Positions 32,695-44,006 of a DNA stretch of 64,000 nt are shown here, piece by piece. The stretch's first letter is position 1. The number at the start of each line of letters is the position of its first letter. Source of the DNA: Actinomycetes bacterium (lineage in GTDB: Bacteria; Actinomycetota; Thermoleophilia; RBG-16-64-13); assembly GCA_024637035.1 (NCBI GenBank), contig JAGXFW010000004.1, forward strand, positions 62,001 through 126,000, written 5' to 3'. The translations under genes and the position numbers were made by a program. The notes below the pieces were generated by a model that saw only the letters and a list, made by a program, of their open reading frames with translations, searched no databases and was not told the DNA's origin.

Positions 32695-34338
32695 TCAGTG
32701 GCGGGCGCGGAGCTCCCTCCGCAGCACCTTGCCCGTGGCCGTGCGCGGCAGGGTGTCGATGAACTCGACGGTCTTCGGCACCTTGTAGCCGGCCAGGTGC
32801 TGCCGGCAGAAGAGCCGCAGTTCCTCGGCAAGGGCGGCGTCCGCCGCCGCAGCGTCCTCGGCCTCCCCCGGCGGCGTGGGCAAACCCGCCGCGACCGCCT
32901 CCAGCACCACCACCGCATGCACCTTCTCGACCCAGTAGGCGTCGGGCAGGCCGATGACCGCCGCCTCCCTCACGGCCGGGTGGCGGCAAAGGATCTGCTC
33001 CACCTCGTACGGGTAGACGTTCTCTCCGCCGGTCACGATCATGTCCTTCTTGCGGTCGACCAGATAGAGATAGCCTTCGGAGTCGAAGCGGCCCATGTCC
33101 CCGGTGTGGAGCCAGCCGTCCACGATCGCTTCGGCCGTGGCCTCGGGTTGCCGCCAGTATCCGACCATCAACGACTTGCTGCGCACGGTGATCTCGCCGG
33201 TCTCGCCCAAGGGGACCTCGCGGCGCTCCTCGTCGACGATCCTCACCTGCACGCCCACGCACGGGCGGCCGGCGGAGCGGAGCACCTCCTGCCGCTCGGG
33301 GGGCAGGTCGAGCACGTCATGCTCGGCTCGAGGGAACGAGGTGATGTTGGGGCCTGCCTCCGACTGTCCGTACGACTGCACGAAGATCGGGCCGAACTTC
33401 TCCAGCCCGCGGCGCAACAAGTCCACCGGCATGGGGGAGGCGGCGTAGAGGATGCGCGTGAGGGCGCTGAGATCGGGACGCATGGTCTCAGCCGTGTCGA
33501 GGATGGAGACGAGCTGAGTCGGGACGATCTGGAGGAAGGTGATCTTCTCGCTCTCCAGCGCGCGCGCGGTGGTCTCCGCGTCGAAGGACCGGTTGGCAAG
33601 GATCACGTGCGTAGCGCCCACGTACATGAAGGCAAGGATGATGGTGCCTGCGATGTGGAACAGAGGTTGCACGAGCATCGCCCGGTCTCGTGGTTCCGCG
33701 GTCAGGTTGAGGGCCCAGAGCTTGGCGTCCTCCATCTTGCGACGATGCGAGTAGAGCGCGCCCTTGGGGGAACCCGTTGTGCCGCTGGTGTAGATGATGA
33801 GGAAGGGGTCGTCCTCATCTATGTCACCGTCGGGTTCCGTGTCCGCATGACCGGCGACGAGATCGCCGTACGGGGTCATATCCGCCACGTCGGGCGCACA
33901 TGAGACGTAATGCTCCACATGCTTCAACCGCGGTCGGATGCGCTCGACCACCTCCTCGCAGCCGACCCCGACCACCAGGACCCTGGCGGCCGAATCATCG
34001 ACCACGTGGGTGAGCTCGTCTTCACGCAGCCGGGTGTTCATGGGGGCGACGATGAAGCCGCCCTTCATGGCCGCCCCGTACGCGTCAAGCACCTCGACGC
34101 AGTTCCAGGAGACCACGCCGATGGTCTCACCCTTGGCCAGACCGAGCGCGCGGAGGGCGTGCACCAGCCGGTTGGCCCGGGCGTTGAAGTGGGCGAAGGT
34201 GACCCGGTCCGGGCCGCAGACGAAGGCTTCCTTTTCGGGATAGAGCAGGGAGTTCCTGTACATGATGTCCGCGAAAGCGCCCAGCGGATACCGGTCGAGA
34301 CTTCCCTGAAAGCTGGATTGCGGCAACGTCGCCTCCAT
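32695..34338 (-). CDS. AMP-forming acyl/aryl-CoA ligase
   Basis: 547 residues. IIYTSGTTGSPKGALYSH (P-loop), a YGQSEAGP motif, GWLHTGDMGRF, the hinge DRKKDMIVTGGENVYPYEVE and a C-terminal LPRTATGKVLRREL with the catalytic Lys are all present. These enzymes make an acyl-adenylate, then a CoA thioester. The gene is last in the run with the three molybdo-hydroxylase subunits, starting 46 nt after the FAD subunit, so an aromatic or hydroxy-aromatic acid is a likely substrate. The start is uncertain (34338 or 34362; no clear Shine-Dalgarno). An Ala/Pro insert precedes the last domain. Confidence 0.88.
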   Translation of the reverse strand: MEATLPQSSFQGSLDRYPLGAFADIMYRNSLLYPEKEAFVCGPDRVTFAHFNARANRLVHALRALGLAKGETIGVVSWNCVEVLDAYGAAMKGGFIVAPMNTRLREDELTHVVDDSAARVLVVGVGCEEVVERIRPRLKHVEHYVSCAPDVADMTPYGDLVAGHADTEPDGDIDEDDPFLIIYTSGTTGSPKGALYSHRRKMEDAKLWALNLTAEPRDRAMLVQPLFHIAGTIILAFMYVGATHVILANRSFDAETTARALESEKITFLQIVPTQLVSILDTAETMRPDLSALTRILYAASPMPVDLLRRGLEKFGPIFVQSYGQSEAGPNITSFPRAEHDVLDLPPERQEVLRSAGRPCVGVQVRIVDEERREVPLGETGEITVRSKSLMVGYWRQPEATAEAIVDGWLHTGDMGRFDSEGYLYLVDRKKDMIVTGGENVYPYEVEQILCRHPAVREAAVIGLPDAYWVEKVHAVVVLEAVAAGLPTPPGEAEDAAAADAALAEELRLFCRQHLAGYKVPKTVEFIDTLPRTATGKVLRRELRARH

Positions 34339-34384
34339 AGGGGGGATTGTCGGGGGGATCATCGGGCGGGCGTCGGGCGGGCGG

Positions 34385-35431
34385 TCATCGGCACATGTCT
34401 CGGAGCGCGCGACGCGCAAGCACGGGGATCATGGCCTTGCGGTACGTCGAACCGGCCGCCGTGTTCCCCGCGAACTTGACGCTCTTCTGAAGGAGTTCGC
34501 CCAGCTCCACGGCGAGTGCTTCGTCCACTTCGCGCCCCTCGAGCAGCGCGCCGGCCTCGGGCAGCAGCAGGGGGGCGGGCCCTGTCGCGTTGAGTACCAC
34601 TCGGGCACCGTGGAGACGCGCCCCGACCACCGATGCGTCTGCCCCCGGCGTGTCGGGCCTGGGAGTGTCAGCCCCGGGTGCGTCGACCTCTGGCGTATCG
34701 ACCTCCGCAAAGAGCGAGACCCCGGCCAAGGGGAAGTCGAGCGTGTCCCTGAGGCGCAGCTTCTGGTACGAGAACCGGGTGGTCGGCGGCGGCTTCGGGA
34801 TCTCGATCTCGACGAGGATCTCGTCCGGTCCAAGGCCCAACGGATGGATGCCCTCACCGGTGAAGAGGTCGTTCACCGCGAGCTTCCTCCGTCTGCCCTC
34901 CGCCGTCGCGATGGTCGCCGTCGCCGACCAGGCGATGAGCGGGCCGGCTAGGTCGCCCGAGTAGACGGCGTGGCAAGAGGTGCTCCGCCGCACGGCGTGG
35001 CAGGTTCCGCCCCCCAGCTTGAGGCACGGTCCCCAGCGCGCACGGAAGATCGGCGGCTGGTTGTAGAAGGTGCAACGCGTGTCGAGGCAGAGGTTCCCGC
35101 CGACCGTCCCCGCGTTGCGGAGGAGCGGGGAACTCGTCTGGCGGATCGCGTCGCTCAGGCTCGCCCACTCGGGGTGAGTCGAAGCCCAGTCGGCGAGTTC
35201 GGTGAGCGTCGTAGCGGCGCCGACTCTGAGGCCATCCTCGTCCGTGCGCGCGATACCTCGCAACTCGGCGATGCCCGCGAGCCCGATCACGCGAAGCGGC
35301 GCGTGGAGGCGCTGCTTCATGCACACGAGGAGGTCGGTGCCGCCCGCCAGGAACGCGGAGTCCACGTCGGCGAGCGCGCACGCCTCCTCCACTGACGCGG
35401 GAGCCAGGTATTCGAACCGAGGGAGGGTCAC
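34385..35431 (-). CDS. hcrB: FAD subunit of a molybdenum hydroxylase, 4-hydroxybenzoyl-CoA reductase beta type
   Basis: 348 residues. FLAGGTDLLVCMK (28-40) and NAGTVGGNLCLD (106-117) bind FAD. Between them and the C-terminal domain is an inserted loop with Cys120, Cys136, Cys144 and Cys153. The spacing (15, 7 and 8 intervening residues) equals that of the [4Fe-4S] loop known in Thauera 4-hydroxybenzoyl-CoA reductase beta (Cys122/138/146/155). This loop is absent from ordinary xanthine or CO dehydrogenase FAD subunits and marks enzymes running reductively. A Pro/Asp/Thr-rich linker (about 245-275) is unusual. GTG 35431 overlaps the upstream subunit stop by 4 nt. Confidence 0.82.
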   Translation of the reverse strand: MTLPRFEYLAPASVEEACALADVDSAFLAGGTDLLVCMKQRLHAPLRVIGLAGIAELRGIARTDEDGLRVGAATTLTELADWASTHPEWASLSDAIRQTSSPLLRNAGTVGGNLCLDTRCTFYNQPPIFRARWGPCLKLGGGTCHAVRRSTSCHAVYSGDLAGPLIAWSATATIATAEGRRRKLAVNDLFTGEGIHPLGLGPDEILVEIEIPKPPPTTRFSYQKLRLRDTLDFPLAGVSLFAEVDTPEVDAPGADTPRPDTPGADASVVGARLHGARVVLNATGPAPLLLPEAGALLEGREVDEALAVELGELLQKSVKFAGNTAAGSTYRKAMIPVLARRALRDMCR

Positions 35432-37806
35432 GCCGACTCCCCGTCGCGGGAGCGGCCGTCATCCCGGCTGTCCCGACGAGCGTCGGCGCCCCGCCGGGCG
35501 TCGGCGTTCTGTGCGGCCTCGGCGCCCCGCCCGAGGGCCTCTACCACGACCTCCGGGGTGATGGGCACCTCCTTGAACCACACGCCGACAGCGTCGTGCA
35601 CCGCGCTCACCAGGGCGGGCATGACGGCCACCTGCACACCTTCCCCGCTCTCCTTGGCGCCGAAGGGCCCCATCTCGTCCACCGTGTCGGTGTGGGTCAC
35701 TTCCACCGGGCAGGCGTCCAGGGCCGTGGGCATGCGGTATTCGAGGAACGAGGCGTTCATGGTCTGCCCGCGCCGCCGCTGGATGGTCTCGGTGAACGTG
35801 TGGCCGATGCCCCCGATCGATGAGCCCTCGAGTTGCCCTTCCACCAGCATCTCGTTGATGGGTTGCCCGCAGTCGTGCGACACGGCGAGGCGCAGCACCT
35901 TCACCCTGCCCGTCTCGGTGTCCACCTCCACTTCGGCCACCTGCGTGCCGAAGGAGTAGGCGCCCGACTGGTTGCCCATGCCGGTGTCAAAACGAGGCAG
36001 GTCGATGTCCTCCGGAGCCCAGTAGCCCCTGCCGAGGATGGTCATGCCTGTGCCCGAGTACTGCGCCGACTTGACGAGCTTGGCGAAGGGGAGACCGCGG
36101 TCGGGTTCGTCTCGCACGAAGACCCGTCGGTCGCGGAACTCCAGGTCGTCCGGCTCCGCGTCGAGCAGTCCGGCCGCGACTCCGGCGAGCTGGGCGCGGA
36201 CGTCCTCGGCGGCCCATTTGACCGCGTTCCCGGTGATGAACGTCACCCGGCTACCGAACACTCCTGGGTCCAAGGGCACGATCTCGGAGTCCATGCCCCC
36301 GTACTGGACATCGTCCAGGTGGATGCCGAGTACTTCGGCGGCGATCTGGGAGAGCACGGTGTCGGAGCCCTGTCCGCAGTCGGTGGACCCGGTGACCAGG
36401 CCCACGCGGCCGTCCTCGTGCACCTTGATGAGAGCCGCCGACGTGTTGTGGCCCGCCATGCGGGGTCCGCTGAGGTAGCCGTACGAGGCTACGCCGATGC
36501 CGCGCTTCAGGTGTGGCTCGCTGTCGGCCGGAGTCTCCCCGCGCCAGCGTTCCACGATCCCGCGGGCCTCGAGCAGGGTCTCACTGAGCCCGCAGCTGGT
36601 GATCTCGAAACCGTTCCCGGTGGTGTCGCCGGACTGGATGGCGTTCTTGAGGCGGATCTCCAGAGGATCCAGGCCCAGCTCGCGAGCGGCCATGTCGAGT
36701 TGTACCTCGGCGGCGTAGCGCACCTGGGGGACGCCGTGGCCGCGCATCGCGCACGACGGCTGGGTGTTGGTGTAGACGCGGCACCCCTTGGCTCGGAGGT
36801 TCGCCACGCGGTAGGGGAGCGCGAGGAACGTGCACATCAGGTAGAGGCTGAGCGCACCGATGCCCTTGTATGCTCCGCCCTCGGCGACGATCTCGGCGTC
36901 GACCGCCACCAGCGTGCCGTCTTTCATGAAGCCGGATTGGAGCTTGATCCAGGCGGGATGACGTTGGCGATACGCGTAGAGCACCTCTTCCTGGCTCACC
37001 ACGATCCTAACGGGGCGCCTGGTCTTCATGGACAAGAGAGCGGCGCAGAAGTCGAGGTTGAACATCTCGTTCTTCCCGCCGAAGCCCCCGCCCAGGTAGG
37101 ACTGCATGATACGGACCTTGCTCATGGGGATGTCGAGCGCCTTCGCCATGTTCCTGTAGGTGAAGTAGGGACTCTGTTTTGAGCCCCAGAAGGTCAGGCG
37201 CCCAGAGGTGTCCCAACTGGCCAGTGCGGCGTGGGGCTCGATGAACCCGTGGCGGATGGGCGCCGTCTTGAATTCGTCGTAGCGCACGTAGTCGCAGGTG
37301 GCGAAGGCCCGTTGCGCGTTGCCGAAGCTCAGGTCGGTCTCGAAGGAGATGTTGCCGGGGGCATCGTCGTGCACCAGCGGAGAACCGGGGGCCATGGCAG
37401 CGAAAGGGTCGAGAACCGGATCGAGGAGTTCGTACTCGACGTCGATGAGCGCCAGGGCCCGCTCGGCGGTCTCCTCGTCGACCGCCGCGACGGCCGCGAC
37501 GGCATCGCCCACGAAACGGACCTTCTCGAAAGCCAGGTACGGCTCGTTGCCGGGTGAGGCGATGCCGCCGGCCAGGAACTTCAGCGTGTCCTCGCCGGTG
37601 ATGACGGCGCGCACTCCCTCAAGGGTCAGGGCGGGCGCCGTGTCGACCTTGAGCAGGCGGGCGTGGGGGTGAGGGCTGCGCAGCAGCTTACCGTGCAGCA
37701 TCCCCGGCAGCGAGAGGTCTCCCGTGTACATGGCCTCGCCCGCTGCCTTGACCATGCCGTCCACCCGCGGTAGACGCCCACCGATGTTGACGTATTCGCG
37801 CTTCAT
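35428..37806 (-). CDS. hcrA: Molybdopterin-binding large subunit, xanthine dehydrogenase/4-hydroxybenzoyl-CoA reductase alpha type
   Basis: 792 residues. SYLGGGFGGK (236-245) and VTGSTDCGQGSDTVLSQIAA bind the molybdopterin cytosine dinucleotide; GPFGAKESGEG near the C-terminus supplies the catalytic Glu (about 719). Residues about 1-130 form the a/b hammerhead. The final 30 residues are a low-complexity Ala/Arg/Asp tail not seen in relatives. With the FAD and [2Fe-2S] subunits it should form a heterotrimer dimer in the cytoplasm. Substrate assignment depends on the FAD subunit loop. ATG 37806 lies 28 nt after the [2Fe-2S] gene and has only a weak ribosome-binding site. Confidence 0.85.
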   Translation of the reverse strand: MKREYVNIGGRLPRVDGMVKAAGEAMYTGDLSLPGMLHGKLLRSPHPHARLLKVDTAPALTLEGVRAVITGEDTLKFLAGGIASPGNEPYLAFEKVRFVGDAVAAVAAVDEETAERALALIDVEYELLDPVLDPFAAMAPGSPLVHDDAPGNISFETDLSFGNAQRAFATCDYVRYDEFKTAPIRHGFIEPHAALASWDTSGRLTFWGSKQSPYFTYRNMAKALDIPMSKVRIMQSYLGGGFGGKNEMFNLDFCAALLSMKTRRPVRIVVSQEEVLYAYRQRHPAWIKLQSGFMKDGTLVAVDAEIVAEGGAYKGIGALSLYLMCTFLALPYRVANLRAKGCRVYTNTQPSCAMRGHGVPQVRYAAEVQLDMAARELGLDPLEIRLKNAIQSGDTTGNGFEITSCGLSETLLEARGIVERWRGETPADSEPHLKRGIGVASYGYLSGPRMAGHNTSAALIKVHEDGRVGLVTGSTDCGQGSDTVLSQIAAEVLGIHLDDVQYGGMDSEIVPLDPGVFGSRVTFITGNAVKWAAEDVRAQLAGVAAGLLDAEPDDLEFRDRRVFVRDEPDRGLPFAKLVKSAQYSGTGMTILGRGYWAPEDIDLPRFDTGMGNQSGAYSFGTQVAEVEVDTETGRVKVLRLAVSHDCGQPINEMLVEGQLEGSSIGGIGHTFTETIQRRRGQTMNASFLEYRMPTALDACPVEVTHTDTVDEMGPFGAKESGEGVQVAVMPALVSAVHDAVGVWFKEVPITPEVVVEALGRGAEAAQNADARRGADARRDSRDDGRSRDGESA

Positions 37807-37834
37807 GACCCTGGGTTGGTGGCGTCGAGGGTCT

Positions 37835-38338
37835 TCATGAGTCCGCGTTGGTCGCGCCGGTCGTCCCCGCGCCGGTTTTCCCCGCCGCAGCACCCCTCTG
37901 GACTGCCTCGACGATCTTCACGTAACCGGTGCAGCGACACAGGTTCCCGGACATGGCTTCCTTGATCTCGTCCTCGGTCGGGTCGGAGTTCCTCCCGAGG
38001 AGGGCTCGCGCGGTGATGATCATGCCCGGGGTGCAGAACCCGCACTGGATGGCTCCGACCTCGTGGAAGGCGGTCTGCAGCGCATCCATCCGGCCGTCGC
38101 GGGCCAGGCCCTCGATGGTCACGATGGCCTTGCCCTGCGCCTGCACGGCCAAGACCAGGCACGACTGCATCGCCGTCCCATCGATGAGCACGGTACACGC
38201 CCCGCACTCACCGTGATCGCACCCTTTCTTGGCGCCGGTGAACCCGAGCGAATCCCTGAGAACGTCGAGCAGGGTCCAGTGGTCTTCGACCCCGACCTTG
38301 TACGAGCTATGGTTCACATCGAGAGTGATCTCGACCAC
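37835..38338 (-). CDS. hcrC: [2Fe-2S] subunit of the molybdenum hydroxylase
   Basis: 167 residues. The plant-ferredoxin-type cluster uses Cys40, Cys45, Cys48 and Cys60 (GCDHGECGACTV); the second cluster uses Cys99, Cys102, Cys134 and Cys136 (QCGFCTPGM and NLCRCTGY). It carries electrons between the flavin and molybdenum subunits. The first gene of a minus-strand operon (small, large, FAD subunit, then CoA ligase). GTG start at 38338. An Ala/Gly/Thr tail follows the fold. Divergent from the amidase gene. Confidence 0.9.
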   Translation of the reverse strand: MVEITLDVNHSSYKVGVEDHWTLLDVLRDSLGFTGAKKGCDHGECGACTVLIDGTAMQSCLVLAVQAQGKAIVTIEGLARDGRMDALQTAFHEVGAIQCGFCTPGMIITARALLGRNSDPTEDEIKEAMSGNLCRCTGYVKIVEAVQRGAAAGKTGAGTTGATNADS

Positions 38339-38499: not shown

Positions 38500-38521
38500 T
38501 ATGCGACCGAAGGGGGGATCG

Positions 38522-40138
38522 GTGGTAGGGATGGTGGGGTCTCGTGACCCTGGCAGCGGCGTCCGTGACGCCCTGACGTCTTCGACTGCGTCGGAACTGG
38601 CCCGCCTAGTCCGTGAGGGTAGTGTCACGGCCAAGGAGGTGGTGCAGGCGCACATCGACCGCATCGAGGAGGTCGATGGGCGGCTCAACGCAGTGGTGGT
38701 GCGGCGGTTCGAGGCGGCGATGGCCGAAGCGGACGAGGCCGATCGCGCCCAGGAGCGGGGCGACGCATTGGGCCCCCTCCACGGAGTTCCTGTGACCATC
38801 AAGGAACAGTACCTCGTCGCCGACACACCCACCACGTTCGGATTGCCGTCGCGGACTTCGCACCGAGCCGAGCGGGACGGACCGCTCACAGCGCGACTGC
38901 GTGAGGCGGGCGCGATAGTCCTCGGGAAGACCAACGTCAGCCAGATGCTCATCTACTTCGAGAGCGACAATCCGGTATACGGACGAACGAACAACCCATG
39001 GGCGCTCGACCGCACCCCCGGTGGCTCGAGCGGCGGCGAGGCGGCCATCATCGCGGCGGGCGGCTCGCCGCTTGGTCTTGGGGGCGACCTGGGCGGGAGC
39101 ATCCGGGCCCCCGCCCACTACTGCGGCATCGCCGGCCTCAAGCCCACGTCGGGGCGTCTCTCGCTCCTCGACACCCCGGGCGGCGTCTTCTTCGAGCAGG
39201 ACGTGATCGTGTATCAGGCAGGCCCGATGGCGCGGAGTGTGGCGGATCTCGGTCTGGCTATGTCGGTTCTTGTCTCTCCGGAACGGGACGCACTCGACCC
39301 CACCGTAGACGCGCACGCATGGCCCGATTTCGCGTCGGTGGATGTGGCTGGACTCCATCTAGGTGTGTTCGAAGACAACGGGTGGTTCCCGGCTTCTCCG
39401 GGTATCCGCCGGGGCGTTCGGCGAGCCGCGGCGGCGCTGGAGGAGCGGGGGGCCCGCATCTCGGCGTTCCGTCCCCCTCCGGCCGGTGAGGCGCTGCGGG
39501 TGCTCCTCTCCGTCCTGAGTTGCGACGGTCTGGCCGCGTTCCGCACGGCTCTTGACGGTCAGCAGGTGGACGATCGACTCAAGGGTTTCCTTATGGCCGC
39601 GTCCATCCCGAAGGTGGTGCGGCCTCTCATCGCTGCTGTGATGGGCCTGGCCGGGCTGCAGCATATGGCCTTGGCGCTGCGCGCCGTGGGTCCGTGGACC
39701 GGTGAGAGCCTCAGGGCGCTGGCCGACGATGTGGGCCGCTTGCAGTCGGACTACCTCGCCGCGCTCGACGCAGCGAAGGTGGACGCACTGGTGTGTCCGC
39801 CGAACGGCCTACCAGCTCTGGTCCATGGGCTCAGCGACGATCTTACTGTCCACACGGCGGGGAGCTACACGTCTGTGATCAACACGCTCGGCTTTCCCGC
39901 CGGCGTGGTGCCCGTGACGCGAGTGCGAGCGGGGGAGGAGAGCGACCGCCCCGCCGGGCGGGGCCCGGTGGTACGCAAGGCGCTCGAGGTGGAGCGAGGC
40001 AGTGCCGGCCTGCCCGTGGGAGTGCAGGTCATCGGCCGACCCTGGAGGGAGGATGTGGTGCTGGCCGTGATGGCGGCGGTGGAGGACGCCTGCCGCCACG
40101 ATCTCGACTACCCGGTCACCCCGACCATGGTGGCTTAG
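38522..40138 (+). CDS. Amidase-signature hydrolase
   Basis: 538 residues. The amidase-signature triad is visible: Lys in VPVTIKEQY, cis-Ser in TPGGSSGGEAA and nucleophile Ser in GGDLGGSIRAPAHYCG. The family hydrolyses amides to acid and ammonia. Its divergent position next to the CoA ligase and hydroxybenzoyl-CoA-reductase-like genes suggests release of an aromatic acid from its amide, which is inference. GTG 38522 is chosen because AAGGGGGG lies 6 nt upstream; ATG 38501 or 38531 are alternatives. Confidence 0.85.
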   Translation: MVGMVGSRDPGSGVRDALTSSTASELARLVREGSVTAKEVVQAHIDRIEEVDGRLNAVVVRRFEAAMAEADEADRAQERGDALGPLHGVPVTIKEQYLVADTPTTFGLPSRTSHRAERDGPLTARLREAGAIVLGKTNVSQMLIYFESDNPVYGRTNNPWALDRTPGGSSGGEAAIIAAGGSPLGLGGDLGGSIRAPAHYCGIAGLKPTSGRLSLLDTPGGVFFEQDVIVYQAGPMARSVADLGLAMSVLVSPERDALDPTVDAHAWPDFASVDVAGLHLGVFEDNGWFPASPGIRRGVRRAAAALEERGARISAFRPPPAGEALRVLLSVLSCDGLAAFRTALDGQQVDDRLKGFLMAASIPKVVRPLIAAVMGLAGLQHMALALRAVGPWTGESLRALADDVGRLQSDYLAALDAAKVDALVCPPNGLPALVHGLSDDLTVHTAGSYTSVINTLGFPAGVVPVTRVRAGEESDRPAGRGPVVRKALEVERGSAGLPVGVQVIGRPWREDVVLAVMAAVEDACRHDLDYPVTPTMVA

Positions 40139-43544: not shown

Positions 43545-44006
43545 GTGACGGACCGATGGATCGAAGCCAAAGAGGTCGCGATGGCGGGGTTCCGTGATCC
43601 CGGGCCGACGCACCTCAACTGCGCGCAGGCTGTGGTGCTCTTCGCCGCCCACGGCTTCGACCTCGACCCTGCGGCGGTGACCCTGGCCCGCTACATGGGC
43701 GGCGGCTCGGTGGGCATGGGCGAGATCTGCGGGGCGGTCGAGGGTGTCGTCGTCTCGCTCGGCATGCGCGACTACTTCGATCCGTTGGAGCATCCCGGGG
43801 TCGATGCGGGAGAGAAGGCGTCGTTGCAGGCGCTCATCAAGGATTTTAGCGATCAGTTCGGGTCAGCCACCTGCCGGGGCCTCACCGGGCACGACATCAG
43901 CACGAAGGAAGGCTACGACACGTTCAAGGCCGACCCCATCTCTCAGCGCTGTGACGAGTACGTTGCCTGGGCCTGCGACCATCTTCGCTCGCTGCTGGGG
44001 CACTGA
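43545..44006 (+). CDS. C_GCAxxG_C_C family redox protein
   Basis: 153 residues from GTG 43545 with AAGGAGGA upstream. The defining Cys/Gly set is present: LNCAQAVVLF, GEICGAVEGVVVS, ATCRGLTGHD and QRCDEYVAWAC. The family is common in anaerobes and is thought to have a thiol redox role; no reaction is proven. It lies between an MFS gene and an alcohol dehydrogenase gene and is monocistronic. Confidence 0.85.
   Translation: MTDRWIEAKEVAMAGFRDPGPTHLNCAQAVVLFAAHGFDLDPAAVTLARYMGGGSVGMGEICGAVEGVVVSLGMRDYFDPLEHPGVDAGEKASLQALIKDFSDQFGSATCRGLTGHDISTKEGYDTFKADPISQRCDEYVAWACDHLRSLLGH

Follow-up and report, generated by a model that had tools for sequence, protein, structure and literature searches.

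The operon and its gene content

The window analysed here is a 64,000-nucleotide stretch of DNA from an Actinomycetes bacterium of the Thermoleophilia (contig JAGXFW010000004.1, positions 62,001 to 126,000), and its minus strand carries an operon that resembles the genes of 4-hydroxybenzoyl-coenzyme A reductase (HCR). From position 38338 to 32695, intact and closely packed open reading frames (ORFs) encode the gamma, alpha and beta subunits of a molybdenum enzyme and a coenzyme A (CoA) ligase, in that order (Table 1), and the start of beta overlaps the stop of alpha by 4 bp. Alpha contains the Pfam domains Ald_Xan_dh_C, MoCoBD_1 and MoCoBD_2, and beta contains FAD_binding_5 and CO_deh_flav_C. 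These assignments bear out an earlier note made from the sequence alone (the original prediction), which had described three subunits and a CoA ligase in a single run. The true start of alpha is probably the ATG listed in Table 1, with the preceding 29 residues of its ORF untranslated, and the start of the ligase is likely to be its listed ATG. No sigma-70-like site was found in a promoter scan.

The enzyme belongs to the xanthine oxidase family, with an alpha subunit that binds the molybdenum cofactor, a beta subunit that binds flavin adenine dinucleotide (FAD), a gamma subunit with two [2Fe-2S] clusters and a conserved catalytic Glu. Profile, Protein Data Bank (PDB) sequence and fold searches agree that, among characterised enzymes, HCR is nearest to both alpha and beta. 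The top NCBIfam model is that of HCR for alpha (TIGR03194, 708 bits, versus 527 for xanthine dehydrogenase) and for beta (TIGR03195, 242 versus 117 bits), and the HCR model for gamma (TIGR03193, 200 bits) is a close second. In the PDB, the best sequence matches are subunits of HcrABC from Thauera aromatica, namely 1rm6_A for alpha (E 3.2e-147) and 1rm6_B, or HcrB, for beta (phmmer, E 1.9e-48). AlphaFold2 models of beta (pLDDT 90.5, confident) and of alpha (pLDDT 83.5, good) have 1rm6_B (E 5.6e-33) and 1rm6 (E 3.1e-84) as their best fold matches, with identities in the fold alignments of approximately 34% for beta and 37% for alpha. HcrABC shares with the window enzyme the three-subunit architecture and all cofactor sites; the window operon differs in carrying a CoA ligase in fourth place.

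Table 1. Features of the operon and its divergent neighbour (window coordinates; alpha residues in ORF numbering)
Feature	Position	Strand	Basis and remarks
Gamma subunit, two [2Fe-2S] clusters, GTG start	37835..38338	-	Pfam Fer2 + Fer2_2; TIGR03193 200 bits
Alpha subunit, catalytic, molybdenum cofactor-binding	35428..37806	-	792 aa from ATG 37806; ORF open to 37893; TIGR03194, 1rm6_A
His386, MRGHG motif	36736..36738	-	Alignment of 88 alpha subunits
Glu748 to Glu751, in GAKESGEG	35641..35652	-	1rm6_A match and 88-row alpha alignment
Beta subunit, FAD-binding, four-Cys loop	34385..35431	-	TIGR03195 242 bits; 1rm6_B
Predicted [4Fe-4S] loop, beta Cys120-Cys153, spacing 16/8/9	34973..35074	-	Cys-for-Cys alignment with 1rm6_B
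AMP-forming acyl-CoA ligase, last gene of the operon	32695..34362	-	ATG 34362; ORF open to 34419; Pfam AMP-binding; NF004837
Amidase-signature protein, divergent neighbour	38501..40138	+	Pfam Amidase; membership of the system unsupported

The cysteine loop of the FAD subunit

The beta subunit has Cys residues at positions 120, 136, 144 and 153, and the original prediction of an exact HcrB-type loop spacing was upheld, as each of the four is paired in the alignment with a loop Cys of the Thauera protein; where the loop begins, NLCLDTRCTFYNQ stands opposite NLCQDTRCTFYNQ of 1rm6_B. The same 16/8/9 spacing is found in the window, in HCR and in at least 85 examined loci in all, and the match is far beyond chance, as the spacing recurs in so many loci, although the first Cys was itself part of one of two patterns used to find the public loci. 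Of at least 538 confirmed relatives, 80 were kept. These 80 loci come from many phyla and groups, including Gemmatimonadota, Acidobacteriota and Thermosporothrix; most are uncharacterised, and the 16/8/9 spacing can therefore not be equated with reduction.

The claim that a four-Cys loop marks reductive enzymes finds no support. The next PDB matches to beta, PaoB of Escherichia coli (5g5g_B) and 5y6q_B, belong to oxidative aldehyde oxidoreductases and carry Cys in the same insert, which rules out the loop as proof of reduction, and a preprint treats a [4Fe-4S] motif of four Cys as a hallmark of PaoABC (PMC13404670). The loop spacing of PaoB is 10/9/19, and only the 16/8/9 spacing is of the HCR type. 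A third type, 15/8/18, occurs in this genome and in its relatives. The genome encodes five FAD_binding_5 proteins, three of them with a Cys loop. One locus, L007 (G000:C30:117744-118475), encodes a molybdenum complex whose FAD subunit has the 15/8/18 spacing, and another, L006 (G000:C8:11197-11844), encodes a second HCR-like molybdenum complex with a Cys-loop FAD subunit and an alpha subunit of 45% identity.

The active site of the alpha subunit

Active-site residues were compared in an alignment of 88 alpha subunits. The window protein shares with HcrA the motifs MRGHG and GAKE..EG, and the pair Glu748 and His386 is present in HcrA, in the window and in most HCR-like rows (62 of the 88, with Glu or Gln at position 751). 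In PaoC, quinoline 2-oxidoreductase (QorL), carbon monoxide (CO) dehydrogenase (CoxL) and the loop-less references, Gly occupies the 748 position, and that of His386 is taken by Pro, Val, Cys, Tyr or Phe; the PaoABC complex, a four-Cys member of the same family, combines Gly and Pro. The window retains Glu751, the aligned counterpart of the catalytic Glu that is conserved across the xanthine oxidase family. It is the Glu748/His386 signature, rather more than the loop, that ties the window enzyme to HCR. Loop spacing and signature together place it in the HCR-like group; it has neither the Pao loop spacing nor the Gly/Pro combination, and it lacks the loop-less FAD subunit of xanthine and CO dehydrogenases.

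As a separate observation, Gln replaces the catalytic Glu in 19 HCR-like alpha subunits that retain the Glu748/His386 pair (L046, L052, L056, L059, L060, L062, L064, L067, L069, L070, L072, L073, L080, L083, L086, L089, L109, L110 and L113). They form one clade in an 88-row tree and are mostly from Acidobacteriota, Gemmatimonadota and Betaproteobacteria, and their chemistry may differ.

Phylogenetic position

Two trees of alpha subunits were built, a quick one of 88 rows and a careful one of 32 rows that was used for clade tests. In both, the known HCRs form a fully supported clade that excludes the window. The window protein and its orthologue (L114) group with proteins of a deltaproteobacterium (L037), Desulfomonile (L074), a relative (L121) and the same genome (L006), with support of 93/92. 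Grouping of the window pair with loop-less and oxidative references was rejected (approximately unbiased test, p-AU 0.007). In a beta tree without the loop columns, in which internal support is weak, the window falls neither in the HCR clade nor in the loop-less group. The original prediction had named a placement of the FAD subunit with xanthine or CO dehydrogenases, together with non-conservation of the four Cys in close homologues, as the result that would overturn it, and this does not occur: alpha lies away from the oxidative enzymes tested and the FAD subunit away from the loop-less group. The enzyme belongs to a separate, uncharacterised branch apart from HCR proper.

The nearest alpha relatives (L074, L037 and the L006 paralogue on contig C8) have 45-47% identity and the same loop and signature, and in Desulfomonile a CoA ligase also adjoins the complex. 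They differ from the window operon in their ligases, which are non-orthologous (approximately 28% identity), in the gene order beta-gamma-alpha and in having IclR-type regulators or TRAP transporters nearby; they are uncharacterised, and their sister relationship is supported at 93/92 only.

The ligase, the amidase and conservation of the operon

The ligase passes the cut-off of NF004837 (492 bits, cut-off 476). An orthologous operon is present in one of 60 relatives (genome G012, locus L114), with the same gamma-alpha-beta-ligase order and identities of 76/84/69/75%, and no other genome in a 397-genome sample of the phylum has a beta match above 42% identity. The 80 public loci contain 11 CoA ligases in 1060 kb, five of them within 200 bp of the complex, which by our own estimate is a modest enrichment over the approximately two expected with shuffled genes. 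CoA ligases that are not orthologues of the window's also stand next to HCR-like complexes elsewhere, and two of these cases fall in the sister clade. The best-scoring family of the Desulfomonile ligase is dihydroxybenzoate adenylation, and in the sister-clade operons L006 and L121 the regulators show a weak match to the PcaR/PobR (IclR) family; such matches speak for aromatic acids.

An amide hydrolysis step, predicted originally from the divergent amidase, finds no support. The amidase is absent beside the orthologous operon in G012, and its best homologues in relatives have 34-49% identity and are located elsewhere. Also near the operon, at window positions 43545-44006, is a gene for a C_GCAxxG_C_C redox protein, which adjoins major facilitator superfamily transporters and a zinc alcohol dehydrogenase.

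Aromatic metabolism elsewhere in the genome

A common marker of anaerobic benzoyl-CoA breakdown is 6-oxocyclohex-1-ene-1-carbonyl-CoA hydrolase. The genome encodes this enzyme (TIGR03200, 546.8 bits, cut-off 464.5) at G000:C33:227619-228701 (L154:17602-18735), beside a thiolase; no recognisable benzoyl-CoA reductase lies near it, and boxB was absent in a genome search. A candidate class I benzoyl-CoA reductase on contig C10 was rejected. A BzdQ-like activase there passes its cut-off, the neighbouring BzdN/O-like pair scores far below its own, and the pair scores better as a 2-hydroxyacyl-CoA dehydratase. Besides the dehydratase-like pair, this region (G000:C10:115032-125583, L138) encodes two activases, of which one exceeds the BzdQ cut-off, together with a CoA ligase and a PanE-like reductase. 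At G000:C5:104289-106455 (L140), HGD-D domain matches are split over frames, possibly in frameshifted or decayed genes. The genome has no WhiB, and its only 16S gene is a partial one with approximately 80% identity to Bacillus relatives on plasmids, from which neither phylum nor Gram type follows.

Proposed function and alternatives

We consider, with a probability of roughly 0.58, that the operon encodes an HCR-like molybdenum/FAD/iron-sulfur reductase for an aromatic acyl-CoA made by its own ligase. The ligase would activate an aromatic carboxylic acid, probably one with a hydroxyl group, as a CoA thioester. Electrons from a low-potential donor, for example ferredoxin, would enter at a [4Fe-4S] cluster of beta and travel by way of FAD and both [2Fe-2S] clusters in gamma to molybdenum in alpha, where the thioester-activated hydroxyl would be eliminated reductively as water. 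Benzoyl-CoA, or a substituted analogue of it, would result and may then enter the anaerobic benzoyl-CoA route, a ring-opening hydrolase of which the genome encodes at another locus. The scheme builds on what was observed in gene content, loop, fold, active-site signature and tree position, and on a ligase linkage kept in one relative; reaction direction, substrate, electron donor and formation of the [4Fe-4S] cluster are its predicted parts.

Such a pairing has precedents, and the suggestion that the combination was undescribed is not supported. The route from CoA ligase to HCR is described in Thauera and proposed in Geobacter (PMC1924859), and an acyl-CoA synthetase with an HCR-like enzyme has been proposed for 4-aminobenzoyl-CoA in Desulfatiglans anilini (PMC7500099). 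Reductive dehydroxylation has also been shown for urolithin C dehydroxylase (Ucdh) of the clostridial anaerobe Enterocloster bolteae, a xanthine oxidase family member whose closest characterised relative is HCR; its authors count it as the second such enzyme in the family, after HCR (PMC12771579). Ucdh, compared with the window enzyme by description only, differs in that its substrate is a lactone and not a CoA ester.

Several observations weigh against the proposed function. Classification places the window ligase only generically, within a general fatty-acyl/MenE-like group. HCR-type loops are common in bacteria not known as anaerobic, and the genome encodes an aerobic-type heme-copper oxidase (COX1, E 2.6e-158), which argues against a strict anaerobe and makes the original description of the host as an anaerobe unsafe. 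The genome search for benzoyl-CoA reductase that had been suggested recognised no complete enzyme. The same genome has 15 matches to the tungsten aldehyde oxidoreductase (AFOR) family, and a class II reductase (BamB) was rejected among the seven of these compared with the PDB, all of which are closer to aldehyde oxidoreductases. In addition, gamma, alpha and beta all score under the NCBIfam equivalog cut-offs for HCR (200 of 258 bits for TIGR03193, 708 of 994.6 for TIGR03194 and 242 of 404.6 for TIGR03195), and placement of the window pair inside the HCR clade was rejected in the 32-row tree (p-AU 3.18e-68).

These scores and this test bear directly on the view that the operon encodes plain HCR with a 4-hydroxybenzoate-CoA ligase, diverged only through host phylogeny. 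Best matches for both large subunits in every comparison and the full loop and signature speak for it; the enzyme nevertheless scores under the HCR cut-offs and lies outside the HCR clade, uncharacterised lineages, acidobacterial and other, lie nearer to HCR than the window does, and the benzoate-CoA ligase model is outside the top 25 families of the ligase, so that this view is very improbable. Hardly more credible is an HCR-like reductive deamination of an aminobenzoyl-CoA from the adjacent ligase. The D. anilini proposal, likened here by description only, the presence of an anthranilate-CoA ligase among the PDB matches of the ligase and a position outside the HCR clade are consistent with it, but no gene at the locus indicates an amino substrate and the D. 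anilini assignment is itself a proposal.

It is also unlikely, though less so, that the operon encodes an oxidative molybdenum hydroxylase or aldehyde oxidoreductase in which the HCR-type loop is incidental and the ligase acts on the carboxylic acid product. Most of the xanthine oxidase family is oxidative, PaoABC oxidises aldehydes despite its [4Fe-4S] motif, the widespread HCR-type spacing is mostly uncharacterised, and a heme-copper oxidase is at hand. Against oxidation stand the Glu748/His386 pair, unlike every oxidative reference, the different loop spacing of PaoB and the rejected tree grouping, and an HCR-like reductase acting on a ligase-made thioester is preferred.

Implications

The chemistry is already known from HCR, but the window enzyme lies on a branch apart from it. 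It is conceivable, if speculative, that this branch represents a lineage within the xanthine oxidase family that reductively dehydroxylates (or deaminates) some aromatic CoA thioester different from 4-hydroxybenzoyl-CoA. We know of no anaerobic aromatic pathway in the bacterial family concerned. A study of OPB41, an actinobacterial lineage, reported in 2022 that its strains were devoid of HCR genes and stated that there had been no report of anaerobic aromatic degradation in Actinomycetota (PMC9686372).

The known reductive dehydroxylases of the xanthine oxidase family are very few. The joint presence of Glu748 and His386 could help, where the loop by itself cannot, to tell the many unannotated HCR-like complexes apart from oxidative enzymes. 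A compact operon that includes the ligase is also a small and testable system in which to look for a further substrate.

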